A DNA stretch of 51,538 nucleotides from Rhodothermus profundi. Its GTDB lineage: Bacteria; Bacteroidota; Rhodothermia; Rhodothermales; Rhodothermaceae. The translations under genes and the position numbers were made by a program. Where the stretch lies: the NCBI RefSeq assembly GCF_900142415.1, contig NZ_FRAU01000011.1, positions 36,809 through 88,346 of the forward strand, given 5' to 3'. Below, one piece after another: positions 1 through 35,424 of the stretch (position 1 is the stretch's first letter; every line of letters begins with the position of its first letter). Under the pieces are notes generated by a model that saw only the letters and a list, made by a program, of their open reading frames with translations, was not told where the DNA came from and did no database searches.

Positions 1-182
1 AGGAGGATGTGCGGAGTCATTATCGGAAGGGTCAGCCGGGCGACTGGCGGAATCATTTTACCGAAGAACACGTGGCCGCCTTCAAAGAGAAATTTGGTGA
101 TCTGGTTGTCCGCTTGGGCTACGAACCAGATAACAACTGGACCCTGACAACAGCAACACCCGAGGAGCATCGCAATGCCTGA
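1..182 (+). CDS. Sulfotransferase, C-terminal end (partial)
   Basis: The reading frame is open from the window edge (first full codon at base 3) to a TGA at 180-182, about 59 residues. It carries RKGQPGDW followed by an HFTEEHVAAFKEKF-type helix. In PAPS-dependent sulfotransferases this C-terminal R-K-G-x-x-G-D-W loop contacts the 3'-phosphoadenosine of the sulfate donor. The catalytic P-loop-like N-terminal part lies outside the window. The stop overlaps the start of the next glycosyltransferase by 8 bases, so the two are probably translationally coupled. In context it would add sulfate to a sugar of the exopolysaccharide or to a glycan precursor. The family call rests on the end motif only. 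Confidence 0.75.
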   Translation, partial: EDVRSHYRKGQPGDWRNHFTEEHVAAFKEKFGDLVVRLGYEPDNNWTLTTATPEEHRNA

Positions 183-1134
183 AGTTGGGGTAGTTATTCC
201 CTGCTATAATCAGGAACGCTATATTCTGCGGGCCATCGAAAGCGTTCAGCGACAGACCTGGACCGACTGGGAACTGGTAGTTGTAGATGATGGCAGCACA
301 GATGCTTCGGCGGTCCTTGTGGAAGAGTTGACAGCGCAGGATGAGCGGATTCGTCTGGTACAACAGGAGAATCAGGGAGTAAGTCGGGCACGTAATCGAG
401 GAGTCCAGGAGCTTAGCCCCTCTGTACGCTATCTGCTTTTTCTGGATGCGGATGATATGCTGCATCCCGAAATGCTTCAGACTCTGACTTCCTATCTGGA
501 ACAGCATCCCGAGGCTGGCGCTGTTTTCTGTGGGTTTACGCGAATTGATGAAGAGGATAGGACAATTGCGGCGCCGCAACTATTTGTAGCCCATGCTTTT
601 GTGCCGACGCTCCTGGGATTTCGCCGCCTTGGAATGGACTACCAGGGCCGCATACCTTTTTACACGGTAATGGCTGATCCGGTAAATCTTCCATCTAATA
701 CCCTGATGCGGCGCCAGATTTTTGAGCAGGTAGGCGGATGGGATGAGACGGTGCCTCAGCCCGCAGAAGATCGCGACCTGTTTATGAAGATTGCGCTTTT
801 CAGTGAGTTGCATGTAGTGCCTCGGGTGCTGGTGTATTATCGGATGCACAGTCAGCAGTCTACGAAGAATTTAGCGTTTGCGTTGCAGCAGACGGCCCGT
901 TTGATGCGGCGATGGGTGCAGTACTGGCGCGCGCAACCGCCGTCGCGTGAGCGCACGGAAGTTTTGCGTTCCTGGCATTTGAGTATGGGGCGAGTGGGGG
1001 CCTGGAAGAGCGTGCAGGCCGGGTGGCGGCAGTTGCGAAGCCGGCGGGTAGTGCCTGGTATTCGCAATATTATTGCGGGTGTTCGCCGTTATCTGACTTC
1101 GTTTTTACCGTACGAGTGGGGCTGGATGTACTAA
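175..1134 (+). CDS. Family 2 glycosyltransferase (GT-A fold)
   Basis: This 319-residue protein opens with VGVVIPCYNQERYI, the usual first strand and helix of GT2 enzymes. It then shows VVDDGSTD (nucleotide binding, about residues 36-43) and FLDADD (the DXD metal and sugar-nucleotide site, about residue 90). The PAEDRDLFMK segment near residue 198 fits the ED acceptor-site motif. It has no predicted membrane segment, so it should act at the cytoplasmic face of the membrane, adding a sugar to a lipid-linked glycan. The ATG lies inside the end of the preceding sulfotransferase gene, and the next gene starts 3 bases after its stop. Donor and acceptor cannot be told from sequence. Confidence 0.9.
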   Translation: MPEVGVVIPCYNQERYILRAIESVQRQTWTDWELVVVDDGSTDASAVLVEELTAQDERIRLVQQENQGVSRARNRGVQELSPSVRYLLFLDADDMLHPEMLQTLTSYLEQHPEAGAVFCGFTRIDEEDRTIAAPQLFVAHAFVPTLLGFRRLGMDYQGRIPFYTVMADPVNLPSNTLMRRQIFEQVGGWDETVPQPAEDRDLFMKIALFSELHVVPRVLVYYRMHSQQSTKNLAFALQQTARLMRRWVQYWRAQPPSRERTEVLRSWHLSMGRVGAWKSVQAGWRQLRSRRVVPGIRNIIAGVRRYLTSFLPYEWGWMY

Positions 1135-1137
1135 AAC

Positions 1138-2361: not shown

Positions 2362-2364
2362 AGG

Positions 2365-3360
2365 ATGTTCCGACGAGCAGGAAAAGGCAGTTTTGCCGTC
2401 GTGAGGAGGATTGGCAAGGTGCTTCCTGACGGCATGAGATGTAGGTTGAGATATGCGTGGCGTATTGTGGATGATATAAGGCAGGGCGTAAGATTGAATA
2501 GCAAAGTAAAATGTGTAAAAAATATCTATATAGTAAAAAACCTCTTCAGGCCTGAGTTGTGCATTCTGTTTTATCCTAATAGACTGGCAAAATTCTATAC
2601 GATATATAAAATTATCACTTTGCTTGGATTTAGGATAGTGTACGAGCTTGATAAAGCGTATGATTTAGTTGTCAAGTGGAAGGATGCAACCTATACAGAT
2701 CCGCTGCCAGCATCCCTGCGAGATAAACCAGTCATTAATGCGGATTGTATAGATATCAGTAAAGCGTATATCTCAAAGATATTTTTTGATGTTTTTGGAT
2801 ATTCTATTTCTGTTGATCCTTTAAGATACAAAGGCATGATGGTTGTGAAATCAAACAAAAATTTTGCTCATGATGGTCGAATTATAAAAGGGCCGTTATC
2901 TAAAACAGAGGAAGATAAAGTATATCAACGTCTTGTTGATAGCATAGATCCAGAGACGGGACTGGCTGTAGATTTCAGGGTACCTGTTTTTGGAGATATG
3001 ATCCCAATTATCTGGAAGAAATATAAACAGATTGACGAAAGATTTGGGAGAAATGTGATATTTCGAGAGATTGCCTATCCTTATGAGGTTTTTTCGGAAG
3101 AAGAGCTGGAAAAGATTATAAAAGTAGCTCAAGTAATGAATCTGGATTATGGAGAGATGGATGTTTTAAGAGACAGAAGGACAGGAAAGATTTATATTGT
3201 AGATGTCAATAACACTCCAGCCATTGATAAAACTTTAGATTATTTCCTGAGTAAGGATCCTGATGAGGCTCATGTATTGATGAAAGCGCTCTGTAAAGGA
3301 TTTGTAGAACTGATAAAAAAGAAAGGAATCTATAATGCGAAATTTTTGCAAATCACCTGA
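2365..3360 (+). CDS. ATP-grasp-like protein of the polysaccharide locus
   Basis: This 331-residue protein has no family I can name with certainty. The C-terminal half looks like ATP-grasp: MMVVKSNKNFAHDGRIIKGP could hold the ATP-binding lysine. YGEMDVLRDRRTGKIYIVDVN followed by NTP gives the Glu ... Asp-x-Asn pair that binds magnesium in this fold. ATP-grasp enzymes join a carboxylate to an amine or thiol through an acyl-phosphate. Related proteins occur in some cell-surface glycan loci, where they are thought to add amino acids or peptides to sugars. The gene is clearly AT-rich from about base 2460 on, unlike the GC-rich gene before it, which suggests recent acquisition. Amino-acylation of the glycan is inference only. 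Confidence 0.6.
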   Translation: MFRRAGKGSFAVVRRIGKVLPDGMRCRLRYAWRIVDDIRQGVRLNSKVKCVKNIYIVKNLFRPELCILFYPNRLAKFYTIYKIITLLGFRIVYELDKAYDLVVKWKDATYTDPLPASLRDKPVINADCIDISKAYISKIFFDVFGYSISVDPLRYKGMMVVKSNKNFAHDGRIIKGPLSKTEEDKVYQRLVDSIDPETGLAVDFRVPVFGDMIPIIWKKYKQIDERFGRNVIFREIAYPYEVFSEEELEKIIKVAQVMNLDYGEMDVLRDRRTGKIYIVDVNNTPAIDKTLDYFLSKDPDEAHVLMKALCKGFVELIKKKGIYNAKFLQIT

Positions 3361-3366
3361 TTTGTT

Positions 3367-4398
3367 ATGCCAAAATGTTCGGTAATTATACCTGCCTATA
3401 ACGTTGAGAAATATATACGATTTTCCGTGTCATCTGTGTTGTCTCAAACTTTAAGAGATCTGGAAATAATTGTTGTGGATGATGGGTCCACGGATAATAC
3501 TTATGCTATTTTGACGCAACTAGCCTGGCAGGATTCCCGTATTCGCATCATTCGACATAGACAACGTCGCGGCGCCTCCTGCGCGCGCAATACTGCCCTG
3601 GAGGTAGCGCAGGGAGAATGGATTGCCTGGCTGGACGCTGATGATTGGATGGATGCGGTGCGGCTGGAACGTTTGATCCGGCTTGCCGAACGCTGGGGGG
3701 CAGACATGATCGCCGATAATATATATCTGGTTGATTTTTATAAATTTGATAACATAAGCGAGGGGCAAAAATTTGATCAACAACGTACCCTTTTTTCTAA
3801 ACGATTATTGAAAGCGCTTCCTCGTTTTATTACACCGGTTGAGTTTATTCTGGGCAATATGCCCGGGCCTCGAAATCCAAGGCTTGGTCTGATAAAGCCG
3901 CTTATCAGACACGCTTTTATAACAAAGCATGCGCTGAAATGGCGGGAAGAGGTTATGGTAAGCCAGGATACGGTGTTCTATTTCGAATGCCTTATGCATG
4001 GTGCCCGCCTGCTTCTGATACCTGAAGCTCATTATTATTATCTGGAAGGTCGTCCGCAAAGTATCAGTCTTTCTGTGTCGAATCTACAGGGAAATATAAA
4101 TCGATATAGAGTGAATCAATTTCTGATTGATAAATATGGAAGGGAAAATAGTGCTGTTAAAGCAGCGCTTCAAAAGCGATCTAAAAGATTGTTAAAGCTC
4201 ATACGATATGCGCTTTTCAAGAGAAAACTCTGTAATCGCCCATTTTATCGTAAATTAAAATTTGTGGTAAATAATCCTGTGATAATTTGTGACTATATCG
4301 TCTTTTGTTTGAAAATGACCTGCTATAAAATTGTATCCCGTCTCAAAGCACGGCTACTTTTATCTGAGCGCCGAGCCTCTCGGGGAGGGCGTCAATAA
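3367..4398 (+). CDS. Family 2 glycosyltransferase
   Basis: This 343-residue protein begins KCSVIIPAYNVEKYI. VVDDGSTDN follows at about residue 37 and WLDADDWMD (DXD metal site) at about residue 91. VSQDTVFYFE near residue 200 fits the acceptor-base region of GT2 enzymes. The C-terminal quarter is Lys/Arg-rich and hydrophobic, perhaps membrane-associated. Base composition changes within the gene: the first 130 bases and everything after about 3720 are AT-rich, while 3515-3715 is as GC-rich as the chromosome. This looks like a recombinant gene. Its last 7 bases overlap the end of the convergent acyl-modification gene. Confidence 0.87.
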   Translation: MPKCSVIIPAYNVEKYIRFSVSSVLSQTLRDLEIIVVDDGSTDNTYAILTQLAWQDSRIRIIRHRQRRGASCARNTALEVAQGEWIAWLDADDWMDAVRLERLIRLAERWGADMIADNIYLVDFYKFDNISEGQKFDQQRTLFSKRLLKALPRFITPVEFILGNMPGPRNPRLGLIKPLIRHAFITKHALKWREEVMVSQDTVFYFECLMHGARLLLIPEAHYYYLEGRPQSISLSVSNLQGNINRYRVNQFLIDKYGRENSAVKAALQKRSKRLLKLIRYALFKRKLCNRPFYRKLKFVVNNPVIICDYIVFCLKMTCYKIVSRLKARLLLSERRASRGGRQ

Positions 4399-5486
4399 GC
4401 GGATCCGGCTTCAATCTCCTGGGTGATTGCCTGCAGAAAGACTTCTGCCAGCTTGCGGGTGAAGTCTGGGGCGTAGGCATCGGCCAGGTGAACCAGATCC
4501 GGGAAGGCTTCGTCGGGGTACGTGGCAGGCACCTCAAGTACAAGCATGTCGTGCGCGTAGGCCCACTGGCGGAAAGAATGTATTTTTTCGGGTGTAGGAC
4601 GGTCGGTCAGTCGATGCCAGGAAGTGAGCGGGACGTTGAAGACCGCGACGCGCCCGCCGCGCCGCTGGAGCAGACGCACCAGGTCTGCAAAGACCGTCTG
4701 ATCCCAGTCTGGAATGACGCTGTCAGGGCGTAATGCATTGAGATGCTGCATTTGTTCGAGCATCAGGCGGCGAATGGCAGCAATTCCGGCGCTGTCGGTC
4801 CGAATGCCTCCTCGGGGAGCCAGGGAGGGTGGAGCAGATGAAACAGGCGGGCGGAGTCCCAGGCGACGGGGCAAGTCCTCGATCAACGCCCGTACTTTCC
4901 CGCGAATAAAGCGCCCGTAGCGTACGCTGTGCAAGAAGAGGCCAGCCGTTACGACGAGCTTGTCGCGCACTGCATCGCCGGCCTGCCACCAGAAGGTCGG
5001 CAGGTCCTCAAGGCGCAGGATAGGAGAAAGGAGCAGCGGCCAGCGTGGATCCGCCCAGAGACCGTCCCAGGTGTCCGTAAAAAGATCGCCGGGAGGCACG
5101 CCGTGCTTCAGTCCGACAAGCAGGACGGTTCCAGTCAGGAGCGAATCTGGAAGGCACCGAAGCGCCAGATAGTGCTCGGCCAGCGTTGAATATCCCTGGC
5201 CAAGGTTGTAGATGTAAAGGGGAGGCGGGAGGTTGGCCGCTGCGGCATGGGGGCGCAGCACTTCGCGAAACGTGGGCACGTCGACCGCGGCCGCCACGCG
5301 GGAACTGCCAATGAACAGGTAATGGACTGGTGTTTGGCCAGTGCGCAAGGGATGGTAAAAGTCTACGAGTCGCTGCACTCCCGCAAAGGGACCATTCGGC
5401 GTAAGCAACCGAATGGTCAGTTCTACTGCCACCAGAGGCGGCAGGAAGAATCCGAGGGCTTTGACGACAAGTTGCCGCAGCCGCAT
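4392..5486 (-). CDS. SGNH-hydrolase-like protein, probable polysaccharide O-acyl transfer partner
   Basis: This 364-residue protein has one N-terminal membrane anchor (about residues 8-28) and an extracytoplasmic domain. LFIGSSRVA at 58-65 fits block I of SGNH/GDSL enzymes, with Ser62 as likely nucleophile. DLVH at 330-333 fits the C-terminal Asp-x-x-His of the triad. It starts 3 bases after the stop of the MBOAT gene, so the two form a pair like those that O-acetylate alginate, peptidoglycan or cellulose. There the membrane protein brings the acyl group across the membrane and the SGNH partner places it on the glycan. That role is inferred from pairing and motifs; overall identity to a named family could not be tested. 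Confidence 0.7.
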   Translation of the reverse strand: MRLRQLVVKALGFFLPPLVAVELTIRLLTPNGPFAGVQRLVDFYHPLRTGQTPVHYLFIGSSRVAAAVDVPTFREVLRPHAAAANLPPPLYIYNLGQGYSTLAEHYLALRCLPDSLLTGTVLLVGLKHGVPPGDLFTDTWDGLWADPRWPLLLSPILRLEDLPTFWWQAGDAVRDKLVVTAGLFLHSVRYGRFIRGKVRALIEDLPRRLGLRPPVSSAPPSLAPRGGIRTDSAGIAAIRRLMLEQMQHLNALRPDSVIPDWDQTVFADLVRLLQRRGGRVAVFNVPLTSWHRLTDRPTPEKIHSFRQWAYAHDMLVLEVPATYPDEAFPDLVHLADAYAPDFTRKLAEVFLQAITQEIEAGSAY

Positions 5487-5489
5487 GGT

Positions 5490-6992
5490 TCAAAACTGAA
5501 AGTAAATGAACGGACGCCGGTCAAAGACGCCAAACAGCAGTACAAGCAGAATAAGGAAATAGTAGGTGCTCCATCGCAGCAAGCGAGGAGCAGTGTCGAT
5601 CCACGTCTCCAGTCGAACAACGTGGGCATCGATCCACTGAAGAGCTTCCAGCAGTCCAATGGATCCCAGGCTGACGATCCAGTCGGTAAATGAGAAGCCA
5701 GGCAGTCCAAAGCTTCCGGAGAGATCAAAGAGATGGGTTGCGATATGCGCAGCATCTGCTGCGGAACTGGCCCGGAACAGGATCAGACTGGTCATGGCCA
5801 GCCAGCAGGTGGTAAGGACGGCCAGACCATTGCGCAGACGAGGGATAATCCGGGCCAATCTAGGAATTCCGGCGGCATGAGCGGGGGCAGGTGCGAGCTG
5901 ACGCGCCCATTGTTCCACGCGTTGCCAGAACGTGCGGCGCGCCGGACGCGTCAGCAGGCCCACAATCAGATACAGCCCATGCAGCGCTCCCCAGAGCACA
6001 AAGGTCCAGGCAGCGCCATGCCAGAGGCCACTCAGTACAAAAACAATAAAGATACTTCCAAACCAGCGAATTTTAGAGCGGCGTCCCCCGCTGCGCAGCA
6101 GCGGCGCATATACATAGTCGCGAAACCAGGTGGTCAGACTGATGTGCCAGCGTTGCCAGAATTCGGCGATGGAACGGGCCGCAAATGGCCGGCGGAAGTT
6201 TTCCATCAGATCAATTCCGAAAATTCGGGCAGTGCCAATGGCAATGTCTGAATAGGCTGAAAAGTCGCAGAAGATCTGAAAGAAAAAGAAATAGAGCGCA
6301 ATCCAGTAATGCGTCCCACTATAAGCAGCAGGGTGCGCAAAGACAGGATCGACATAGAGCGCCAGGCGGTCGGCAATCACTACTTTTTTGAAGAACCCCC
6401 AGAGAATCAGAAAGAACCCGGTGCGAAGGTAGGCAGCGTGCAGTTTTCGGGGATGGTGGAGCTGAGGCAGCAGATTGCGGGCGCGTTCAATGGGGCCGGC
6501 TACCAGTTGCGGAAAGAAGCTGACAAATAGCGCAAAGTACCCCAGGTGGCGTTCTGGTTTGAGCGTGCCCCGGTACACATCGATAGTGTAGCTGAGCGTC
6601 TGAAACGTATAAAAGCTGATGCCAATCGGTAGCAGCACGTCGAGCGTAGGGACCTCGGTGGGATGCCCCAGTAGCCCCAGCAATGCTTCCAGCGCATCGG
6701 CAAAGAATCCCAGGTATTTGAAGGTAGCCAGGAGCCCCAGGTTGGTAACGAGGCTCAGGATCAGAAACGGTCGGCGAGCCTGCCGCGTGGTGCAGCGCCC
6801 CATTGCCCGACCGCACAGATAGTCGATCAGCGTGGAGACCACAATGAGCAGCAGGTATTCGACCTTCCACCAGGCATAAAAGACATACGAGGCGAGCAGC
6901 AGCAACAGCCAGCGAAAGCGTGCTGGCAGACCGTAGTACAGCGCAACGACCAGCGGCAAAAAGAGCAGAAAGTCTAGCGAGTTGAACAGCAT
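5490..6992 (-). CDS. MBOAT-family O-acyltransferase (AlgI-like)
   Basis: This 500-residue polytopic membrane protein begins MLFNSLDFLLFLPLVVALYY, typical of AlgI/DltB-type acyltransferases. Conserved features include LLPIGISFYTFQTLSYTIDV, WHISLTTWFRDYVY and SGLWHGAAWTFVLWG, with the invariant catalytic histidine at about residue 325. Family members move an acetyl or other acyl group from a cytoplasmic donor to an extracytoplasmic polymer or its partner protein. The ATG has a close GAGGT Shine-Dalgarno on the reverse strand (6993-6998). The gene runs opposite to the surrounding glycosyltransferases, so this two-gene acylation unit is transcribed separately from the divergent region at 6993-7298. 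Confidence 0.93.
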   Translation of the reverse strand: MLFNSLDFLLFLPLVVALYYGLPARFRWLLLLLASYVFYAWWKVEYLLLIVVSTLIDYLCGRAMGRCTTRQARRPFLILSLVTNLGLLATFKYLGFFADALEALLGLLGHPTEVPTLDVLLPIGISFYTFQTLSYTIDVYRGTLKPERHLGYFALFVSFFPQLVAGPIERARNLLPQLHHPRKLHAAYLRTGFFLILWGFFKKVVIADRLALYVDPVFAHPAAYSGTHYWIALYFFFFQIFCDFSAYSDIAIGTARIFGIDLMENFRRPFAARSIAEFWQRWHISLTTWFRDYVYAPLLRSGGRRSKIRWFGSIFIVFVLSGLWHGAAWTFVLWGALHGLYLIVGLLTRPARRTFWQRVEQWARQLAPAPAHAAGIPRLARIIPRLRNGLAVLTTCWLAMTSLILFRASSAADAAHIATHLFDLSGSFGLPGFSFTDWIVSLGSIGLLEALQWIDAHVVRLETWIDTAPRLLRWSTYYFLILLVLLFGVFDRRPFIYFQF

Positions 6993-7298
6993 GACCTCGC
7001 GCGTTTCAGAAAAGCCAATCTTAAGTTAGCAAGGCGCTGCTCGCTAGGCTGCCTCCTCTGGCGCAAGGTAGCGGCAGAAACTCATCCGATCTTTATAGGA
7101 GGGACTGGCACTTTCAGGTGGGAGGTTGTATCCTTCCGGCACATCTCTGGGCGGGTGAAGGTGGCGGAAAGAAACCGCTGCTTTCGGAAGTATCCGACCT
7201 AGGTGAGGAAAACGGGACGTCAGGCGGCCGGAACGGGCTTTGGTGGCTTTGGGCGTCCCGTGGGGCAGGAAGTTGAATGGATACAGACCCGAAAGCTC
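6993..7298. promoter_or_regulatory. Divergent intergenic region with several inverted repeats
   Basis: This 306-base gap separates the MBOAT gene (reverse) from the secreted hydrolase gene (forward) and must hold promoters for both. I see no clear -35/-10 pair. Visible structure includes CTTCCG at 7133-7138 pairing with CGGAAG at 7185-7190, and inside it GCGG and CCGC flanking an A-rich loop. ACGGGACG at 7212-7219 pairs perfectly with CGTCCCGT at 7254-7261. These could fold into a structured 5' leader of the forward transcript. None matches a riboswitch consensus that I know. Confidence 0.4.
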
Positions 7299-10085: not shown

Positions 10086-10128
10086 TATCAAATGGCTTAA
10101 ATCCAAAACTGCCATTGAGATGGGCAAA

Positions 10129-10160
10129 CAGGCGTATCCTGAAAGCGCAGGATGCGCCTG
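10129..10160 (+). terminator. Strong 13-bp hairpin downstream of the secreted hydrolase gene
   Basis: CAGGCGTATCCTG (10129-10141) pairs with CAGGATGCGCCTG (10148-10160) around a 6-base loop, with one G-U pair and otherwise full complementarity. It begins 44 bases after the stop codon. No T-run follows directly; TTTTT occurs at 10173-10177, inside a second weak TGGCT/AGCCA pair. It may be a terminator or an mRNA 3' end stabiliser. The rest of the gap up to 10287 includes an AT-rich stretch (10238-10270) that could hold the promoter of the next gene. Confidence 0.5.
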
Positions 10161-10287
10161 TGGCTTGGCCGCTTTTTAGCCAGAGCACCTCTATGGCATC
10201 TTCTGGGAAACGCGTGCTACGGAGGAGGTTTGCGCTTATCTAATATGACATATTCATTATTCATTCATCTTAGGGGTGTCAGGTGCT

Positions 10288-16492: not shown

Positions 16493-16653
16493 GCATGTCG
16501 CGTCAGCTATTGGCATCGCCGAACCATGTGCAAAAAGACGCATCTTGAATGCGCCAGAACGACCTATGTGCTGCCGAAAAAGCGCGTGCGCCATGCGGTC
16601 AACTTCGCTGTAAACTATAAACGCGAATTTTGAAAACAGCGACGAGTAGTTGT

Positions 16654-17598: not shown

Positions 17599-17604
17599 CT
17601 CTCC

Positions 17605-18850: not shown

Positions 18851-18856
18851 CTACGC

Positions 18857-18863: not shown

Positions 18864-18869
18864 ATATCT

Positions 18870-21097: not shown

Positions 21098-21103
21098 GCG
21101 GCC

Positions 21104-22072: not shown

Positions 22073-22076
22073 GCCT

Positions 22077-23102: not shown

Positions 23103-23106
23103 ATGC

Positions 23107-25373: not shown

Positions 25374-25380
25374 GAGAACT

Positions 25381-26214: not shown

Positions 26215-26318
26215 AAAAGTGCCTTGGATGAAGCGGCAGGCTTAGCAAAGTAGGATTTTGAGTTGGTAGCCCTGAGTGTTTAGCAAGTAAAGGACGAGAG
26301 ATTAAAGAGCCAGAGCAT

Positions 26319-27764: not shown

Positions 27765-27772
27765 GCAAAAAA

Positions 27773-28693
27773 ATGAGTATTCCAGTTTTGTATATTGGAG
27801 GATGGGGGAGAAGCGGGAGTACTTTGATTGGAAATATTTTAGGATCTATAGATCCATTTATACATCTAGGCGAATTGGTATGGATATGGGAACATGGATG
27901 GAAGTCTAATCACTTATGCGGATGTGGTATTCAGTTTCAATCGTGTAGTTTTTGGAAGAGTGTGTTGGATGATTTTTTAGAGAAGAACAGATCTGTTGAT
28001 ATAGATAAAATCATTTTTGTTAGAAATAGATATTTTATGTCAAACATTAATTTTCTCAAATTAATGCTTGGAAAGATAAATGATGAAATTGAAGAGTATT
28101 TATACTATGTGCATCAATTATATAAAAGTATATGGAGTAAATCAGAGAGTAAAGTTATTGTTGATTCGTCGAAGGTTGCTTTTCATTTCCTTGCATTAAG
28201 TATGATTAATGATATTGAATTATACTTGATTCATTTAGTAAGAGATGCAAGAGGGTGTGCTTATTCTTGGTGCAAACATATTTACCGTGAAGATGCAGAA
28301 TCAGGAAAAAAGATTCCATTCGTTCAATATTCTCCAGCTTTTTCAACTTCTAGATGGTGTTTATATAATACTTTTTTTGAAATTTTTAAATCAAAAAGTT
28401 GTAAGCATGCATTAATAAAATATGAGTCGTTTATTCGGGATATTACATCTTATATAAAGTGCTTTATGTCTATGCTTGGAGTCGAAAAAATTAAATGTTG
28501 TGATGTGATGGATGGAGATGGTAATGTGAAAATCGGAATTAACCACACCGTATGGGGTAACCCTTCACGGCTAAAAAGAGGAAAAATCAAAATTCGTCTG
28601 GATGATGCCTGGCGGCGAGAAATGCCGTGGAAGGATCGTCTGGTCGTTACAGCGCTTGCCTGGCCCTGGCTGCTAAAATACGGCTATCTGTAA
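27773..28693 (+). CDS. PAPS-dependent sulfotransferase
   Basis: The ATG at 27773, eight bases after the polymerase stop, gives 306 residues; a TTG 33 bases earlier would overlap the polymerase gene. YIGGWGRSGSTLIGNIL holds the 5'-phosphosulfate-binding loop and LIHLVRDARGCAYSW the 3'-phosphate-binding strand and helix, both standard for Sulfotransfer_1/3 enzymes. It should move sulfate from PAPS to a hydroxyl of a sugar or lipid. The coding sequence is strongly AT-rich up to about 28560. The last 110 bases are GC-rich and run without a break into the normal-composition gene that follows, a likely recombination edge. Confidence 0.88.
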   Translation: MSIPVLYIGGWGRSGSTLIGNILGSIDPFIHLGELVWIWEHGWKSNHLCGCGIQFQSCSFWKSVLDDFLEKNRSVDIDKIIFVRNRYFMSNINFLKLMLGKINDEIEEYLYYVHQLYKSIWSKSESKVIVDSSKVAFHFLALSMINDIELYLIHLVRDARGCAYSWCKHIYREDAESGKKIPFVQYSPAFSTSRWCLYNTFFEIFKSKSCKHALIKYESFIRDITSYIKCFMSMLGVEKIKCCDVMDGDGNVKIGINHTVWGNPSRLKRGKIKIRLDDAWRREMPWKDRLVVTALAWPWLLKYGYL

Positions 28694-28697
28694 ATCC

Positions 28698-29801
28698 ATG
28701 CGGGGACCGAACCGGTACTATCGTTGTCTGGGCTATCGGGAGGAGCCGGAGGTGATGGAGCTGACGCGACCGCCAGCACGACCGTCGTATCTACACCGGG
28801 TGCTGCAAATCGTCGAGCGTGAGCTGGAGGGAATGGGCCTGACTTTTTTTGTTACGTGGAAGCTGGATGTGTTGCCAGCGTATGGCAACCATGTCGTAGC
28901 GATCGTCATGGGCGATGAATGGAGCCAGATTCCAGCCTATGTTGATCGGGTGCTGGTAACGTTTAAATGCTATGGCATTTATCCACAGTTAGCTGCGCGG
29001 CCACTGCGTAAGCCTTCTCGCCTGAATACTTTGTTGCTGCTGCGCCATCTCCGCGTGCTGGCGCACTGGTTGCCCGGAGCCCTGCGCTATAGTGGACGTC
29101 TATTACAGGGATGGCTTCGCGGCAAATCTTTGCCCCCGATATATGATCTGCCTCTAGGATATGGCAACCAGCAAGCACTACCTGTGCTTCCCATTGAAGA
29201 GCGGCCGATTGATGTGTTTTTTGCCGGAAGTGTAGCGCAGGGATTTCCCCGACGTTTCTGGTCGCCATATCGCTGGTTCCCCAGCCCCAAGCGACTGGCA
29301 CGATTGCGGATGTTGCAAGTGCTTGAAACGCTACAACAGCGCGATCCGGACCTCCAGATCTTTGTCCATACTAACGCTCGGTTTGTACTCAATGCCCTGG
29401 AGTATGGCCTGACTAAGCCCGGTGAAGTCCTGGATACTGAGGCGTACTCGCAGACGCTGATGCGCAGCAAAATTTGCCTGGCACCAAGAGGTACCTCAGC
29501 TGACACGTTCCGGTTGTTTGAAGGCCTGCGTTACGGGTGCGTGGTCATCTCAGACCGGCTTCCTCGGCGATGGTTTTATCGCGAGGCTCCTGTCATTCAA
29601 ATAGATGACTGGCAGGAACTGCATACGCTGATTCCCGCTTTGCTCCGCAATACGCAACGGATGCGACAGCTTCAGCAAGAAGCCCTGCGGTGGTGGCAGA
29701 CCGTTGCTTCGGAGGAGGCTATTGGACGCTGGATGGCCCGGTGCATTCGAAGGCGACTGAGCGAAATCTCGACGGCTTCATCAGAAGCGGTACCGGTATA
29801 G
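28698..29801 (+). CDS. Exostosin-like glycosyltransferase
   Basis: This 367-residue protein has KICLAPRGTSADTFRLFEGLRYGCVVIS at about residues 257-284. This is the R-G-x-x-x-D-x-x-R-x-x-E-x-x-x-x-G-C-x-P-V block shared by exostosin (GT47) domains and related bacterial transferases. LPLGYGNQQALP and IDVFFAGSVAQGFPRR fit the start of the donor domain. It should act as an inverting sugar transferase. The preceding gene ends 4 bases upstream and a GT4 gene begins 4 bases downstream. Substrate is unknown. Confidence 0.78.
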   Translation: MRGPNRYYRCLGYREEPEVMELTRPPARPSYLHRVLQIVERELEGMGLTFFVTWKLDVLPAYGNHVVAIVMGDEWSQIPAYVDRVLVTFKCYGIYPQLAARPLRKPSRLNTLLLLRHLRVLAHWLPGALRYSGRLLQGWLRGKSLPPIYDLPLGYGNQQALPVLPIEERPIDVFFAGSVAQGFPRRFWSPYRWFPSPKRLARLRMLQVLETLQQRDPDLQIFVHTNARFVLNALEYGLTKPGEVLDTEAYSQTLMRSKICLAPRGTSADTFRLFEGLRYGCVVISDRLPRRWFYREAPVIQIDDWQELHTLIPALLRNTQRMRQLQQEALRWWQTVASEEAIGRWMARCIRRRLSEISTASSEAVPV

Positions 29802-29805
29802 GACA

Positions 29806-30963
29806 ATGATTCACCTTGCCTTCATTACCCATAATATTTTTCCAGGCGACGGGCAGGGACGCGTCAACTTTGAGCTGGCCCGCTATTTTCTCTTGCGGGG
29901 CGCTACGGTAACGCTCTTTGCCGACAAAGTAGACCGGCGGCTGCTGGACATGGGAGCCTCCTGGGTGCCGGTGCACACCGGTCCGCTGGGCGAAGCCGTC
30001 GATCTCTACAAAGTCTGGCGCTTTCGGCAGCAGGTTGACCGCATCCTGGCTACCATGGACCATCTGTTTGATGTGATCATGGGATGCGGCGTGGTCACCT
30101 GTTTTCCCCATACGGTCAATGCCGTCCATTTCGTGCATGGCACCTGGCTGCGCTCGCCCTATCATCCGGCGCGCCGCAGCCGGCACCCCCGGGCTCTGTA
30201 CCAGCGGATCTTTTCGCAGCTTAACGCTGCCTGGGAACAGGAAGCGTTCGTGCAGGCCCGGCAGATTGTGGCCGTCTCGGAGATGGTCCGCGACGAGTTG
30301 ATCACTATTGGTGTCCCCGCGGAGCGCATAGAGGTGATTGTCAATGGCGTAGATCTGGATGAATTCCATCCCGGGCAGGCCGACCGCAGCCGGTTGGGAT
30401 TACCTGAAGCGGTGCCGCTGGCCCTGTTTGTCGGCGACATTCGCTCCCCTATTAAAAACCTGGATGGCGTGCTGCATGCCATGAAGCAGGTGCCCGCGCT
30501 TCATCTGGCCGTGGCTGGACGGCTGCCCGGCAGTCCCTATCCCGCCCTGGCCGAGCGGCTGGGCATCGCCGAGCGTGTGCATTTTCTGGGATTTCGACGG
30601 GATATTGCCTCGTTGATGCGAGCTGTAGATTTTTTCGTCTTACCTTCTCGGCGCGACTCGTGTCCGCTTGTGTTGCTTGAAGCGCTCGCCAGTGGTCTGC
30701 CGGTAGTGGTCTCTCGTCTGGTAGGAACAGCCAGCCTGGTCGGTGAAGCAGGCTTTGTCATCGAAAATCCAGAAGACCGGGAGGCGCTGGCCCAAGCGTT
30801 GGAAACACTTACTCGGGACGCCGATCTGCGGCGCGTGATGGGACAGAAGGCGCGCGCTATTGCCAGGCAGCATAGCTGGGAGCGCATGGCCTCGCGGTAT
30901 GCAGCGCTGTTTGAGCGATTGATTGGCAAAGAATTTCCGTTACCTGAACTGTACACGGTGTAG
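29806..30963 (+). CDS. Family 4 glycosyltransferase
   Basis: This 385-residue protein opens with FITHNIFPGDGQGRVNFELARYF, a GT4 N-terminal strand and Gly-rich loop. VIVNGVDLDEFHPG is the usual linker motif (about residue 180-193), and LFVGDIRSPIKNLDGVLHAM starts the donor domain. SRRDSCPLVLLEALASGLPVVV is the donor site, with Asp in place of the first Glu of E-x7-E. It is expected to be a retaining transferase in the cytoplasm. It sits in a run of four sugar transferases. Confidence 0.91.
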   Translation: MIHLAFITHNIFPGDGQGRVNFELARYFLLRGATVTLFADKVDRRLLDMGASWVPVHTGPLGEAVDLYKVWRFRQQVDRILATMDHLFDVIMGCGVVTCFPHTVNAVHFVHGTWLRSPYHPARRSRHPRALYQRIFSQLNAAWEQEAFVQARQIVAVSEMVRDELITIGVPAERIEVIVNGVDLDEFHPGQADRSRLGLPEAVPLALFVGDIRSPIKNLDGVLHAMKQVPALHLAVAGRLPGSPYPALAERLGIAERVHFLGFRRDIASLMRAVDFFVLPSRRDSCPLVLLEALASGLPVVVSRLVGTASLVGEAGFVIENPEDREALAQALETLTRDADLRRVMGQKARAIARQHSWERMASRYAALFERLIGKEFPLPELYTV

Positions 30964-30965
30964 CG

Positions 30966-32114
30966 ATGGCACGTCCCCGCATGCTCTGCATCAGCACAGC
31001 CGGTCCCGTAGGACAGGATATCCGGCGCATCCGACGCCTGACGGCGGGATTGCCGGTGGATTGTGCGATCTGGGGACTGGACCGGAGCCGATCGCGAACA
31101 GAAAACATGCGGGCAGTCTGGGAACGGCTGCGCCAGGACCGTCCTGATCTGGTGTACCTGGAGGGGACAGGCATTGCTGCTGGGCTGCCGCTCATCCGAG
31201 CCGCGCGGACCTGGGGGCAGCGCTACGTGGTATCGTCGGGGGATCCAGTGGGTGGTTTTTTTTACGTAACCAAAGGCCTGCCCTACGGCATGGTGTTCGG
31301 TGCGTACGAGCGCTTGCTGTACCGGCACTGTGCCGGATTTATCGGGTGGACGCCCTACTTGACCGGGGTGGCCCTTAAGCTGGGAGCGCCACGGGCGATC
31401 ACTGTCGAAGGAGGCGTCGATCTGAAGACATTCCGGCCGTATCCAGCGGCGCAGCGTCAAGCGCTCCGTCAGCGCTACGGCATTCCGGCCAACCACCTTG
31501 TCTGTGGCGTGGTAGGGAGCCTGAAATGGGTGCCCCGGCAACGCTACTGCTACGGCCTGGAGCTGGTTGAAATGCTGCGTTATCTGCAGCGTGATGATGT
31601 AACCGTGCTCATTGTAGGCGATGGTGACGGTCGGTCCCGCCTGGAAGCCCGGGTGCCTGCCAGGCTGCAAGATCGCGTTGTGTTCACCGGGCGCGTTGAA
31701 GAAGCTGAAGTAGTTGATCTGCTGAATGTCATGAACATCGGGTTTATCACACAGACGCTGGACGCGCTCGGCCGCTACCGGCTCACGACAAAATTGCCTG
31801 AATATCTGGCCACAGGATTACCCATTGCGATGAGTCCGATTCCAGGCTTTTACGACTATGTCTATCCGGCTGGCTGGACGTTGCCTGAAGGACATCCGGC
31901 AGATCCGGCTTTCCATCAGAAGCTGGCAGCCTGGCTGGATGCGTTGTCCTGGGAAGAGGTCAGAAAGCGAGCGGCAGAGGCCCCAGCGCTTGCGCAACGG
32001 TTTGGCTACGACGTATTGCGGCCGCGTTTTGCCGCCTTTATCAGTGATCTGTTGGGCATTGACCTGGCGGAGCAAGCTGTATCACCGGAAAACGTTCAGC
32101 ACGGATGCGGATAG
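30966..32114 (+). CDS. Family 4-like glycosyltransferase
   Basis: This 382-residue protein has a two-domain GT-B pattern: DLVYLEGTGIAAGLPLI and VVSSGDPVGGFFY in the N-terminal half, then VEGGVDLKTFRP as linker. VCGVVGSLKWVPRQRYCYGLELV and LLIVGDGDGRSRLE-like text follow in the C-terminal half. The end motif is TTKLPEYLATGLPIAMSPIPG without the first Glu of E-x7-E. It starts two bases after the preceding stop and overlaps the next start by 10 bases, which supports co-translation. Sugar specificity is unknown. Confidence 0.86.
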   Translation: MARPRMLCISTAGPVGQDIRRIRRLTAGLPVDCAIWGLDRSRSRTENMRAVWERLRQDRPDLVYLEGTGIAAGLPLIRAARTWGQRYVVSSGDPVGGFFYVTKGLPYGMVFGAYERLLYRHCAGFIGWTPYLTGVALKLGAPRAITVEGGVDLKTFRPYPAAQRQALRQRYGIPANHLVCGVVGSLKWVPRQRYCYGLELVEMLRYLQRDDVTVLIVGDGDGRSRLEARVPARLQDRVVFTGRVEEAEVVDLLNVMNIGFITQTLDALGRYRLTTKLPEYLATGLPIAMSPIPGFYDYVYPAGWTLPEGHPADPAFHQKLAAWLDALSWEEVRKRAAEAPALAQRFGYDVLRPRFAAFISDLLGIDLAEQAVSPENVQHGCG

Positions 32115-33364
32115 CCTGTTATGCGCTGGTAGAGCAGCACGCCGGTAGTGTGGCCTCGGCCAACTATCTGGTGCTGGAAGAGCTGTTGCGGCGCGGGCAT
32201 CAGGTGGACCTGTTTGCCAAAGCCGATTTTGTGCGCAAACCGGAAGGGTTGGCGCGCTGGCCGAATTTTCACTACAGGGGCGTGCTGCTCAAGGAGCTGC
32301 TGGCCCTGCGCGATCGGTGGCGCTCGCTGTTGCGCGGAGGGTTGGAGCGCATCGTGGAAGATTGGATCTATCGCAAGCACCTGGAGGTTATCGCCCGTCG
32401 GGTAGCTGTGCAGCATCGGCAGGATCCGTATGACGTCCTGCTGTTTCTGGGCGTGGGCGCTCAGTTTCAGGTAGGAGGCGTGCCGGTAGTCGCCTGGCTG
32501 CAGGGACCACCGCAGACTGAATGGCAGGCGATTCGGCGACTTCGGGATCGGCTGATTGAACTTTCGGGCCGAACCCTCTACTGGAAGCTCTGGGCATTTT
32601 ACCGACATCGGCAACGCACGGCGCGGCGCGAGCTGGCGCGCTGCCAGGCTGTTATCTGCGGGAGCCAGTGGAGCCGTCAGCACGTGATAGCCTTTGGCGT
32701 GCCGGCTGAACGGGTCTTTGCCCTGCCCTATCCGTTCGATCTGGAACTGTTCTGTCCCCGTCCGGCAACACCGCCTCGATACCCGGGGCGGCGTACTCTC
32801 CTCTGGCTGGGACGGATTGATCCCCGCAAACGGCTCGACCTGATGCTGGACGCTTTCGCATTGCTACTGAAAAAACGCCGCGATGTGCATCTGGAGATTA
32901 TCGGGCGGTTTACCTATGCGCCCGAGTATCGCCGCCTGATTGAGACCTTTCCCTTTCCGGAACATCTGACCTATGCGCCTGCGATTGCGCGTCTTGAGGT
33001 CCCGGAACTGCTGCGGTCGGTGGATGTGGTTGTGCAACCCAGTGAAGATGAAAATTTTGGTTCTACCGTCGCAGAGGCGCTCTGTTGTGGTCGGCCGGTG
33101 GTGCTGGGCCCAACCAACGGCACCGGCGAATATTGCGGAGAAGCTGCTTTTCGCTTTGAGCGCTATACGCCAGAGGCCTTGTGCAGGGCGCTGGAGACGG
33201 CGCTGCAGGCAGTCGAAACAGATCCAGCGAGGCTGGCGCAGGTAGCCCGGCAGACGGCTGAGCAGCAGTTTGACGTCCGTCGCATAGTGGACCAGCTAGA
33301 GGCTATTCTGGCTCGCACCACAGCCCCACAGCCAATGCGGGAGCTGATTCAACAGACTGAGTAG
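32105..33364 (+). CDS. Family 4 glycosyltransferase
   Basis: This 419-residue protein shows MRIACYALVEQHAGSVASANYLVLEEL at the start and VVAWLQGPPQTEW in the acceptor domain. RTLLWLGRIDPRKRLDLMLDAF opens the donor domain. SEDENFGSTVAEALCCGRPVVLGP holds the complete E-x7-E donor motif. Length is slightly above the GT4 average because of a basic helix around residues 155-180. It overlaps the gene before it by 10 bases and is followed 4 bases later by a sulfotransferase, so sugar addition and sulfation are likely co-expressed. Confidence 0.91.
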   Translation: MRIACYALVEQHAGSVASANYLVLEELLRRGHQVDLFAKADFVRKPEGLARWPNFHYRGVLLKELLALRDRWRSLLRGGLERIVEDWIYRKHLEVIARRVAVQHRQDPYDVLLFLGVGAQFQVGGVPVVAWLQGPPQTEWQAIRRLRDRLIELSGRTLYWKLWAFYRHRQRTARRELARCQAVICGSQWSRQHVIAFGVPAERVFALPYPFDLELFCPRPATPPRYPGRRTLLWLGRIDPRKRLDLMLDAFALLLKKRRDVHLEIIGRFTYAPEYRRLIETFPFPEHLTYAPAIARLEVPELLRSVDVVVQPSEDENFGSTVAEALCCGRPVVLGPTNGTGEYCGEAAFRFERYTPEALCRALETALQAVETDPARLAQVARQTAEQQFDVRRIVDQLEAILARTTAPQPMRELIQQTE

Positions 33365-33368
33365 ACTC

Positions 33369-34301
33369 ATGGAAGAGCAACAAGGCCGGCTTCCTGATTT
33401 TCTGATCATTGGGGCTCAAAAAAGTGCAACGACCTGGCTGGCCCGCTTGCTTCGCCAGCATCCTGGTGTTTACATGCCGGAAAGGGAACTGCATTTTTTT
33501 AACTATCCCGGATCGCTTGCGCAGTACCAAGCAGCGTTTCGAGCTGCCCGACCCGATCAATTAATTGGTGAGAAAACCCCGGATTATCTGCATCTGACAG
33601 AGCGGCAGATAGCCCGCATTAAGGAGTGGATGCCTTCGGTGCGGCTCATTGTCGTGCTGCGTGACCCGGTGGCGCGTTCCTGGAGCCAGGCTCGCATGGA
33701 AGTAGCCGCGGTAAACCGGCGTCCCCTTGCCTGGCGAGATCGCTTCTGGCTAGCATGGCATGTCCATCTATTGCGCAATCGACTGCGTAGCGACTACCGC
33801 CGCGCCCTGCAGCGATGGCAACAGTTCTTTCCACGCCAGCAGTTTCTGGTTTTGTTTTATGAGGACTTATACCGGGACCCTGTCTCCTTCATGCATCGCG
33901 TGTTCGATTTTTTGGGGTTGTCAGCGTTGCCAGCGCAAACGTTGCATGCACTGGCGAAACGGCGAGTGTGGGAATCACCGGCAGCAGATATGCCAGCCTG
34001 GCTACGTTATGCGCTGACCCGGCGTTATTGCGCGCAGACGCAATGGCTAAAACAGCAGGGATATCAGGTGCCGGCGTCATGGCCAAATGCTAGTCTGGTG
34101 CAGCAGCTACGCCGCGAGGAGCGAGGGCTCTCCCTGAAAGCAGGGGTACTGACAGGCATGTTAACGGTGCTGTCTTTGCCTGAGCATCTGCTGGTTTATA
34201 TGGGACGCTGGTTTCCGGCATTGCGTCTGTATCGGCTGTACGATCGCCTCCAGCATTGGCGAATGCACCGCGAAGAACATGAACGTCCTTCAACTCGGTA
34301 G
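33369..34301 (+). CDS. PAPS-dependent sulfotransferase
   Basis: This 310-residue protein has FLIIGAQKSATTWLARLL (5'-phosphosulfate loop, about residues 11-28) and LIVVLRDPVARSWSQ (3'-phosphate site, about residues 92-106). LVLFYEDLYRDPVSFMHRVFDFLGL is typical of heparan-type and other carbohydrate sulfotransferases. The C-terminal loop RKG-x-W is not obvious. It is expected to sulfate the polysaccharide or its precursor in the cytoplasm. Composition is normal for the locus, unlike the AT-rich sulfotransferase at 27773. The next gene starts 23 bases before its stop. Confidence 0.9.
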   Translation: MEEQQGRLPDFLIIGAQKSATTWLARLLRQHPGVYMPERELHFFNYPGSLAQYQAAFRAARPDQLIGEKTPDYLHLTERQIARIKEWMPSVRLIVVLRDPVARSWSQARMEVAAVNRRPLAWRDRFWLAWHVHLLRNRLRSDYRRALQRWQQFFPRQQFLVLFYEDLYRDPVSFMHRVFDFLGLSALPAQTLHALAKRRVWESPAADMPAWLRYALTRRYCAQTQWLKQQGYQVPASWPNASLVQQLRREERGLSLKAGVLTGMLTVLSLPEHLLVYMGRWFPALRLYRLYDRLQHWRMHREEHERPSTR

Positions 34302-35424
34302 TGGGTGGTTTGCGGAAGCCCCGGGAGGACTGGAGCGGGTCTATGAAGCCCTGTGCCGTTATCTGCCGGCGACCGGCGTGCATTGCCAGGGGGTGGTGAT
34401 GGGCTCGGAGGCAGTAGCCCGGACTACAGAGGGAAAATTTGTGGCGGCAGCGCCTCCGGAAGCTCCACTCTGGAGGCGATGGCAGGGTGTGCGCCGGGCC
34501 GTCCGGCAACTCCGTCGTGACAGACCGTGGGACCTAGTGGCTGCTCACTTTGCCCTGTACACTTTCCCGGTGCTGGATCTGGTGCAGGATCTGCCGCTGG
34601 TGGTCCACTTCCATGGGCCCTGGGCCTGGGAAGGACGCGAGGAGGCCCGGCGAGGCGTTCAGGTGGCGGTCAAAGCCTGGCTGGAGCGGACGGTTTACCG
34701 GCAGGCAGTGCGTTGCATTGTGCTGTCTGAGGCATTTGGGCATGAGCTAGTAAGACGCTACGGTGTGGCACCGGAGCGCGTTCGCATAGTCCCGGGTGGG
34801 GTCGAAGCCTCGCGCTTTGCGCTGGACTGCTCCCGGCAGGAAGCCCGTGCGAAGCTGGGATGGCCTGCGGATCGCCCCATTGTGCTCAGCGTGCGGCGCC
34901 TGGTGCGACGGATGGGGTTAGAGCGGTTGATCACTGCGATGACTGCCGTGCGGCAGCGCATTCCCGAAGTCCTGCTGTTGATTGCCGGACGCGGACCGCT
35001 GGCCCAGGCATTGGAGGCGCAGATCAAAGCGCTGGAGTTGCAACAACACGTGCGTCTGCTGGGATTTGTCTCGGACGATCAGCTCCCGCTGGCTTACCGC
35101 GCAGCCGACCTGACCATCGTGCCAACCATTGCGCTTGAGGGCTTCGGGCTTATTACGCTGGAATCACTGGCCGCGGGTACCCCGGTGCTCGTAACTCCGG
35201 TCGGTGGGTTGCCTGAGGCAGTGCGGGGACTCTCAGAATCCCTGGTGCTGGACGACACCACCCCGGAAGCTCTGGCAGCTGGCCTGATCGAAGCACTGAC
35301 AGGACGACGCGTATTGCCATCGGCCGAGGCCTGCCAGGCGCACGTGCGCGCGCACTACGACTGGCCTGTGATCGCGCAGCAGGTAAAAGGGGTGTATGCA
35401 GAGGCGTTACGGGAGGGCGCGTAA
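34279..35424 (+). CDS. Family 4 glycosyltransferase, last gene of the locus run
   Basis: This 381-residue protein begins MNVLQLGSGWFAEAPGGLERVYEAL and has VHFHGPWAWEG in the acceptor half. VRIVPGGVEASRF is the linker, and PIVLSVRRLVRRMGLERLITAM starts the donor domain. Glu and Glu of EGFGLITLE form the E-x7-E motif, followed by SLAAGTPVLVTPVGGLPEAV. The ATG lies inside the end of the sulfotransferase gene (23-base overlap). A hairpin follows its stop, and the next gene is on the other strand, so this appears to be the 3' end of the long polysaccharide run. Confidence 0.92.
   Translation: MNVLQLGSGWFAEAPGGLERVYEALCRYLPATGVHCQGVVMGSEAVARTTEGKFVAAAPPEAPLWRRWQGVRRAVRQLRRDRPWDLVAAHFALYTFPVLDLVQDLPLVVHFHGPWAWEGREEARRGVQVAVKAWLERTVYRQAVRCIVLSEAFGHELVRRYGVAPERVRIVPGGVEASRFALDCSRQEARAKLGWPADRPIVLSVRRLVRRMGLERLITAMTAVRQRIPEVLLLIAGRGPLAQALEAQIKALELQQHVRLLGFVSDDQLPLAYRAADLTIVPTIALEGFGLITLESLAAGTPVLVTPVGGLPEAVRGLSESLVLDDTTPEALAAGLIEALTGRRVLPSAEACQAHVRAHYDWPVIAQQVKGVYAEALREGA

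Follow-up and report, generated by a model that had tools for sequence, protein, structure and literature searches.

We analysed a polysaccharide locus in a species of Rhodothermus, Rhodothermus profundi, most of which lies in a 51,538-nucleotide stretch of DNA (the window) corresponding to bases 36809-88346 of contig C11 (88,346 bases) in a genome of 3.14 Mb and 18 contigs. Window positions 1-35424 hold most, not all, of this locus. A preliminary description, made from the sequence alone, had treated window base 1 as its beginning, and this must be corrected, since about 11 kb of further locus genes lie upstream on the same contig (C11:25707-36808). This upstream part encodes a glycosyltransferase (GT), a priming transferase split into two overlapping genes, a Wzc-type kinase, an SLBB-like protein, an ATP-binding cassette (ABC) exporter, two sulfotransferases (ST1 and ST2) and the start of a third (ST3). 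All listed locus genes are on one strand except the MBOAT pair, and between 16630 and 35424 the intergenic gaps are 217 bp or shorter and overlaps are frequent.

For comparison, 60 kb were fetched around the corresponding loci of three relatives, namely genome G001, R. marinus AA3-38 (G002) and R. marinus DSM 4252T (G004), using blastn pieces longer than 150 bp and at most four tblastn pieces per query; further relatives were compared by tblastn at more than 38% identity, with at most three pieces per query, and by open reading frames (ORFs) above set lengths. "Relatives" in the list below are the three fetched loci, unless others are named, and SDR denotes short-chain dehydrogenase/reductase proteins. 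The features are:

Bases 18100-19309 of the piece C11:17500-37200, adjoining window base 1: a stretch of 1,210 N within the tandem sulfotransferase array
1-182, + strand: ST4, the 59-amino-acid C-terminal end of a tandem sulfotransferase, with an RKGxxGDW motif (PF00685, 22.7 bits against a cut-off of 22); the rest falls in the upstream N gap
175-1134, + strand: GT2a, glycosyltransferase family 2 (PF00535, 123.6 bits); 85.6% identity in G006, beside the ST4 counterpart; close counterpart not found in the three fetched loci
1138-2361, + strand: GT4a, glycosyltransferase group 1, a core gene (PF13692, 112.7 bits); 82-87% identity in the relatives
2365-3360, + strand: ATP-grasp-like accessory protein (PF08443, 16.3 bits, below cut-off); unmatched in the relatives
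3367-4398, + strand: GT2b, glycosyltransferase family 2 (PF00535, 137.8 bits); partial matches of 29-42% identity in the relatives, none of them a close counterpart
4392-5486, - strand: putative SGNH-like partner of the MBOAT protein, with motifs GSS at 60 and DLVH (DxxH) at 330
5490-6992, - strand: MBOAT membrane O-acyltransferase, DltB-like (PF03062, 109.1 bits; TIGR04091, 167 bits against a cut-off of 375; DltB structures at E ~1e-31)
7203-10085, + strand: 960-amino-acid protein of uncertain role, with DUF5060, collagen-bind_2 and Ig-like Pfam domains
10276-16449, + strand: 2057-amino-acid protein of uncertain role, with a malectin domain (PF11721, 85.5 bits) and a C-terminus resembling a sorting tail (Por_Secre_tail, 25.1 bits, slightly short of the cut-off of 27)
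16630-17598, + strand: SDR nucleotide-sugar epimerase/dehydratase 1 (PF01370, 188.5 bits); 83-88% identity in the relatives; no equivalog above cut-off among the 25 matches listed
17816-18850, + strand: GT2c, glycosyltransferase family 2 (PF13704, 40 bits); 81-85% identity in the relatives
18840-19946, + strand: SDR nucleotide-sugar epimerase/dehydratase 2 (PF01370, 148.5 bits); 93-98% identity in all six other genus genomes (partial length in G006)
19910-21097, + strand: GT4b, glycosyltransferase (PF13692, 21.1 bits, below the curated cut-off); 78-86% identity in the relatives
21104-22072, + strand: GT-A-like putative glycosyltransferase with a DPD motif; no significant match in the Pfam search; 87-89% identity in both R. 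marinus strains, without a match in G001
22077-23102, + strand: putative glycosyltransferase, weakly Nucleotid_trans-like (PF03407, E 0.042, below cut-off), again without a significant Pfam match; no close counterpart in the relatives
23107-24261, + strand: GT4c, glycosyltransferase (PF13692, 25.2 bits, below the curated cut-off); 69-75% identity in the relatives
24258-25373, + strand: GT4d, glycosyltransferase (PF00534, 150 bits); 77-79% identity in the relatives
25381-26214, + strand: FkbM methyltransferase, accessory (PF05050, 96 bits); unmatched in the relatives
26319-27764, + strand: Wzy-like polymerase candidate (Wzy_C, 15.5 bits against a cut-off of 31.7); 80-82% identity in DSM 4252, AA3-38 and G001
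27740-28693, + strand: ST5, sulfotransferase between Wzy and the next glycosyltransferase (PF13469, 21.8 bits against a cut-off of 27), with RSGST and RDARGCAYS motifs
28698-29801, + strand: exostosin/RXYLT1-like glycosyltransferase (PF24785, 31.1 bits); 77-78% identity in G001 and DSM 4252, 72-77% in two pieces in AA3-38
29806-30963, + strand: GT4e, glycosyltransferase (PF13692, 102.4 bits); 79-88% identity in the relatives
30966-32114, + strand: GT4f, glycosyltransferase (PF13692, 46.1 bits); 81% identity in G001 and 86% in G005, and in neither R. marinus locus
32105-33364, + strand: GT4g, glycosyltransferase (PF00534, 86.5 bits); 75-85% identity in the relatives
33369-34301, + strand: ST6, sulfotransferase (PF13469, 79.4 bits), whose nearest solved relatives are heparan sulfate 3-O-sulfotransferases
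34279-35424, + strand: GT4h, glycosyltransferase and last gene of the locus (PF00534, 130.3 bits); 73-81% identity in the relatives

The locus contains at least five and probably six sulfotransferase genes (ST1-ST6), which belong to several subfamilies. Seven such genes or fragments were seen in the genome, six of them here and one on contig C1 (C1:246839); the search with PF13469, PF00685, ST2 and ST5 covered the whole genome and found a single sulfotransferase outside this 38-kb stretch, PF03567 not having been searched genome-wide. With one sulfotransferase elsewhere in the 3.14 Mb searched, their clustering here is more than would be expected by chance. The three sulfotransferases originally noticed, ending at 182, 28693 and 34301, are all present, the last of them clear, the first a tail, and the one ending at 28693 below the family cut-off when taken alone. 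For the tail (ST4), protein identity to the C-ends of tandem sulfotransferases in relatives is 62-90%. ST5 has a homologue in genome G017 (29% identity), located where PF13469 scores above its cut-off (59.2 bits in total for the place); a PDB sequence search with ST5 returned nothing relevant (one row, E 1.2), and its single-sequence structure model has a mean pLDDT (predicted local distance difference test score) of 35.4. Both the 5' and the 3' motif, which we take to bind the sulfate donor 3'-phosphoadenosine 5'-phosphosulfate (PAPS), are present in ST1, ST2, the N-terminal part of ST3, ST5 and ST6, and the RKGxxGDW motif occurs in ST2 as well as in the ST4 fragment. ST6 aligns with structure 1t8t (E 1e-18) through an EKTP segment and through both PAPS motifs. 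The Glu of this segment is the catalytic base in heparan sulfate 3-O-sulfotransferases, and the alignment with these enzymes favours a sugar as acceptor. The genome also encodes adenosine 5'-phosphosulfate (APS) kinase, as do 11 of 14 control genomes.

Sulfotransferases as such are ordinary in this order, PF13469 proteins being found in 33 of 40 genomes (own included); the less ordinary part is a variable array of them within one conserved exopolysaccharide (EPS) locus. Among 394 genomes sampled across the phylum, 14 (own included) gave ST2-type and 14 (own included) ST5-type homologues, so that both types have a scattered distribution; four of the 14 with the ST2 type are Rhodothermus.

The remaining machinery agrees with most of what had been described. 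The over a dozen sugar transferases are borne out by 14 glycosyltransferase-like genes in the window, 12 of which have a Pfam match at E <= 0.01 (two of these 12 below curated cut-offs). Two clear SDR/epimerase proteins correspond to the two epimerases, as a family assignment rather than a specificity, and the FkbM methyltransferase is clear. The putative Wzy-like protein has 11 hydrophobic segments in a simple Kyte-Doolittle scan and a weak Wzy_C match. The suspicion of a thermophilic source fits the genus Rhodothermus. Upstream, the halves of the priming transferase match CoA_binding_3 (below its own cut-off) and Bac_transf; a polyprenyl-phosphate priming transferase is present (PF02397, 220.1 bits at C11:27634-28437). 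The Wzc-type co-polymerase/tyrosine autokinase carries Wzz and GNVR domains (TIGR01007, 153 bits against a cut-off of 108). The SLBB-like protein has 173 amino acids and a weak match (E 0.052), and the ABC protein passes the HepA-family model NF045513 (863.5 bits against a cut-off of 725). Poly_export proteins are encoded outside the locus, on contigs C1 and C5.

Much of this is shared within the genus. DNA pieces align with DSM 4252 and AA3-38 at about 73-84% identity by blastn, which shows that the genome belongs to neither of these strains, and a core made up of Wzc, the SLBB-like protein, the ABC protein, Wzy, both SDRs and nine of the 14 glycosyltransferase-like genes of the window is colinear in G001, AA3-38 and DSM 4252T at 69-95% protein identity. 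Wzc and the second SDR are found in all seven genus genomes (own included), partly as contig-end fragments. The fetched G001 piece is without the two regulators, the first glycosyltransferase and the priming transferase upstream of Wzc, all of which the other five relatives have. What varies around this common core, at fixed sites, is the set of sulfotransferases together with ATP-grasp, FkbM and MBOAT. None of the three fetched loci has a match to ST5, FkbM, ATP-grasp or MBOAT, and at the ST5 site the distance from Wzy to the next glycosyltransferase is 21-45 bp in relatives (21 bp in DSM 4252 and AA3-38). ST6 has counterparts of 59% identity in G001 and 79-82% in G005 and G006; neither DSM 4252 nor AA3-38 has it at the corresponding site, where DSM 4252 carries a GT2-like ORF. 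A PF03567-type sulfotransferase lies between GT2c and SDR2 in AA3-38 and G001; six sulfotransferases in all were found in the AA3-38 locus (one PF00685/PF13469, four in tandem, one PF03567-type). The GC content of ST1 (34.5%), ST5 (33.6%), ATP-grasp (36.7%), GT2b (42.8%) and FkbM (45.8%) is low against the 51-64% of the other listed genes, which suggests that such genes may have been acquired by transfer.

What is known of the product comes from R. marinus strains rather than from the species of the window. The primary paper on the DSM 4252 EPS is reportedly Sardari 2017, known to us through a review table and citations. According to the portion of that review available, EPS of R. marinus DSM 4252 and MAT 493 contains arabinose, xylose, acetate and sulfate (PMC10672628), and a Fourier-transform infrared (FT-IR) band at 1219 cm-1 in the EPS of strain DSM 16675 was taken as sulfate ester (PMC9590192, available text). 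The terms "sulfotransferase", "gene cluster" and "EPS biosynthesis" do not occur in the available text of the latter (PMC9590192). Other partial sources list arabinose, galactose, glucose and mannose in R. marinus EPS, with xylose added in marine broth (PMC6801211), and a DSM 4252 EPS high in xylose (PMC4698589, a meeting abstract). Our literature search found no paper that assigns genes to the sulfated R. marinus EPS, within a partial coverage of papers on Rhodothermus and sulfotransferases.

The locus most probably makes a secreted or capsular sulfated heteropolysaccharide, with a shared core and with decorations that were gained, lost and recombined. That the product is a sulfated polymer is well supported, since the locus is syntenic with that of DSM 4252T, whose EPS is listed with sulfate and acetate, and the FT-IR band of DSM 16675 points the same way. 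Of the sulfated, O-acylated and methylated polysaccharide originally proposed, then, the polysaccharide and above all its sulfation stand, acylation and methylation being less supported. Gene content, family assignments, synteny and the mosaic tandem genes are direct observations, and the sulfation of R. marinus EPS is a description by others. We infer further that this locus makes the R. marinus-type EPS, that the steps follow the order given here and that all decorations sit on one polymer. The Bac_transf-type priming enzyme would load the first sugar onto a lipid carrier and about 15 glycosyltransferases would build the repeat unit from nucleotide sugars supplied by the two SDR enzymes; the HepA/MsbA-like ABC protein would flip the polymer, the Wzy-like protein would polymerise it, and export would proceed via Wzc and outer-membrane proteins, the SLBB-like one in the locus and the Poly_export ones from elsewhere. 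The PAPS-dependent sulfotransferases (at least five, probably six) would sulfate the polymer, while acyl groups may be added by the MBOAT pair and methyl groups by FkbM. Since the core is constant and the sulfotransferases and other decorations change, the relatives should make one family of polymers that differ in sulfation.

Several observations weigh against this reading. As evidence for sulfate, the FT-IR band is indirect. The Wzy-like assignment of 26319-27764 depends on a weak family match, and Wzy was found in four of the seven genus genomes, the three without it being assemblies of about 70-260 contigs. A Wzx flippase of the Polysacc_synt family (PF01943) has no match on contig C11, which has the HepA/MsbA-like ABC protein instead. 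Clear counterparts in all three fetched loci exist for the nine core glycosyltransferase-like genes, the remaining five being patchy, and no more than two sulfotransferases were found in the DSM 4252 locus. PF00685 matches occur in six of the seven genus genomes, the exception being G003, which gave no sulfotransferase match at all; its contig breaks off within the ABC gene, directly short of the sulfotransferase array, for which reason it was rejected as a natural sulfotransferase-free control. The main confounder is the existence of second sulfotransferase-bearing regions, from which the reported sulfate could come: contig C1 has a glycan region (244000-250500) with the one sulfotransferase mentioned above, two GT1 genes, an SDR and a UDP-GlcNAc 2-epimerase, and DSM 4252 has a sulfotransferase at 1.004 Mb beside a Wzx-like gene. 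The earlier claim that all genes of the locus act on one polymer is, with such a second region in the genome, a matter of inference.

That the sulfated Rhodothermus EPS stems from such a second locus, and that the sulfotransferases studied here act elsewhere, for example on the glycan of a glycoprotein, is nevertheless improbable in our judgment: the C1 region and the DSM 4252 sulfotransferase beside a Wzx-like gene speak for it, but six of the seven sulfotransferase genes or fragments are in this locus, in the company of Wzc and the ABC protein. The product might alternatively be an O-antigen bound to the surface, and neither EPS nor capsule; its sulfation would then resemble that of the Salinibacter ruber O-antigen cluster, for which the available text reports sulfotransferases together with glycosyltransferases (PMC6060240). 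The sole, weak match of the Wzy-like protein, to an O-antigen-ligase-type domain, would agree with this. A Wzc-type kinase co-polymerase and an SLBB-like protein, the latter weakly matched, are however both encoded in the locus, and these point to capsule or EPS export and not to O-antigen, so that we regard an O-antigen as unlikely.

A further possibility, which we hold to be doubtful, is that two or more glycan units adjoin one another: a sulfated EPS unit (the upstream part together with 16630-35424) and an inserted unit at 2365-16449 (ATP-grasp, GT2b, the MBOAT pair and the two large proteins) with another product, an arrangement compatible with a secreted or capsular sulfated polysaccharide as the product of the first unit. 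Most of the stretch 2365-16449 has no counterpart in the locus of the three relatives, and the stretch holds the opposite-strand pair and low-GC genes. Yet a 112-amino-acid match to the MBOAT partner (77-79% identity) lies at the same place, between GT4a and SDR1, in DSM 4252 and AA3-38, so part of the putative unit is old; moreover, accessory decorations are frequent within EPS loci.

Returning to the sulfated heteropolysaccharide, O-acylation of it by the MBOAT pair is plausible. As to the MBOAT/SGNH pair previously described, the MBOAT protein itself is confirmed and its SGNH partner stands at the level of motifs: the putative SGNH identity comes from the GSS and DxxH motifs, no Pfam or NCBIfam family matched, a PDB sequence search gave nothing relevant (one row, E 1.2), and the single-sequence structure model has a mean pLDDT of 38.5. 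Acylation is less supported than sulfation because the pair is on the opposite strand and MBOAT has no counterpart in the three fetched loci, the rest of the R. marinus genomes not having been searched for it. The 112-amino-acid remnant suggests that the acylation pair was lost in R. marinus; as the R. marinus locus has no MBOAT and, of the partner, shows that match alone, the acetate of R. marinus EPS lends no support to an activity of this pair. Methylation is predicted from a single FkbM gene, which is absent from the three fetched loci. In AA3-38 the FkbM site, between GT4d and Wzy, is occupied by an IS200-like transposase ORF (PF01797, 24.2 bits against a cut-off of 23; 4954-5595 of the fetched piece). 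The ATP-grasp-like protein, situated between glycosyltransferases and without a close family, might link an amino acid to either the polymer or a precursor. The two large proteins (7203-16449) lie inside the locus in this genome only, among the four compared: of the 960-amino-acid protein the C-terminal tail alone was matched in the three relative loci, and the 2057-amino-acid protein had no full-length match there. They might bind or trim the polymer.

The most variable part of the locus is the tandem sulfotransferase array. The first 135 codons of ST3 lie upstream of the window and are followed by the N stretch, which ends exactly at window base 1. In genome G006 the same order ST1-ST2-ST3 is followed by a contig break, and another contig there has a full sulfotransferase followed by GT2a and GT4a, which makes it most likely that ST3 and ST4 are two genes rather than one. 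The gap likely holds the remainder of exactly two sulfotransferase genes, which fits the tandem spacing of 868 to 912 bp in AA3-38, where a complete chromosome shows four tandem sulfotransferases about 0.9 kb apart (10388-14018 of the fetched piece). Repeats in the array would explain both the assembly gap here and the contig break in G006.

The tandem genes are mosaic. In AA3-38 the third and fourth genes are 51% identical over their first 273 nt, yet a stretch of 332 nt in their back halves is identical, and over codon columns 160-275 their identity reaches 99.7% (identical runs were counted at 30 nt or more). In G006 the ST3-type and ST4-type genes have 47% identity in the front part and 95% in the back part, the latter over about 130 nt before the contig end; the corresponding values for the fourth-type gene of AA3-38 compared with that of G006 are 77% and 86%. 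In these two pairs the back halves thus resemble each other more within one genome than across species, a pattern that indicates gene conversion or unequal crossing-over. The second AA3-38 gene speaks against conversion as a general rule: its back half is 75% identical to its neighbours versus 78% to DSM 4252 and 77% to G006, and it shares a 125-nt identical run with the DSM 4252 gene. A codon shuffle (5,000 replicates) gave 0 for both within-genome pairs and 79 for the fourth-type pair of AA3-38 and G006. It was rejected as a test of conversion, since two cross-strain pairs, the second and the fourth AA3-38 gene with DSM 4252 (runs of 125 nt and 56 nt), also gave 0 of 5,000; the back half is conserved anyway, so the argument for conversion rests on identity within versus between genomes.

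The alignment places the RKGxxGDW motif known from SULT-type enzymes in the back half, and the front half is where the acceptor site would lie. We tentatively suggest, as one possibility, that the tandem genes form a recombining cassette array in which conversion homogenises the PAPS-binding back halves of some copies while the front halves diverge, so that every strain would have its own enzymes, with differing acceptor sites. If this is true, the array would encode a sulfation pattern that shifts while the polysaccharide backbone stays constant, similar to glycan antigenic variation and perhaps driven by phages or surface recognition. A literature search combining sulfotransferase genes, gene conversion, polysaccharide and bacteria found no such report.

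The locus is a known kind of system in a new arrangement, with an unusual sulfotransferase complement and a partly mosaic array. Its closest described likeness is the synechan locus xss of Synechocystis PCC 6803, in which, going by the available text, glycosyltransferases, Wzy, a co-polymerase and sulfotransferases likewise share one locus, with the outer-membrane polysaccharide export (OPX) protein encoded elsewhere (PMC8205485). Rhodothermus belongs to the Rhodothermota and not to the cyanobacteria, and it has probably six sulfotransferases versus two in xss, a HepA-like ABC protein instead of a Polysacc_synt flippase on the contig, and additional MBOAT, FkbM and ATP-grasp genes. HepA itself is the family of the heterocyst formation ABC transporter, a role not expected here. 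Also close is the R. marinus DSM 4252T/AA3-38 counterpart, with the same colinear core and sulfotransferase sites and, in the fetched 60 kb, without ST5, FkbM, MBOAT and full-length versions of the two large proteins. The Salinibacter ruber cluster, in the same phylum and located in genomic islands, also has variable sulfotransferases and glycosyltransferases; the available text describes it as an O-antigen cluster, and the likeness is one of description, not of gene content (PMC6060240). Pontiella sulfatireligans, as far as the available text goes, makes a sulfated EPS without being a cyanobacterium and has a putative sulfated glycosaminoglycan cluster in which a sulfotransferase accompanies GT2 and GT4 genes; this system differs in phylum, in having one of its three sulfotransferase genes in the cluster and in mostly N-sulfation (PMC7356697).

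The 2021 synechan paper stated, in its available text, that among bacteria sulfated polysaccharides are exclusive to cyanobacteria and that no sulfotransferases were known in other bacterial EPS clusters (PMC8205485), an exclusivity that the partial sources on Pontiella (PMC7356697) and Salinibacter (PMC6060240) already qualify. The present locus supplies candidate genes, deletable one by one, for the R. marinus EPS that others describe as sulfated, and genetic tools for Rhodothermus are mentioned in the available text of PMC6801211. Comparing naturally occurring versions of the one core, which carry two to six sulfotransferases, would in addition let the sulfation pattern be matched to single enzymes.

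Beyond GT4h the flank at 35491-50957 seems unrelated to polysaccharide synthesis. A search of plasmid DNA with the flanking E1 gene gave no match; two Rhodothermus metagenome-assembled genomes have counterparts of this gene with 90-93% identity. The flank encodes an E1 dehydrogenase (on the opposite strand), a histidine kinase with a response regulator, an alanine racemase and a porin-like protein, as well as an S9 peptidase, an amidohydrolase, a D-Ala ligase, an indigoidine-synthase-A-like protein and a GH77 enzyme.

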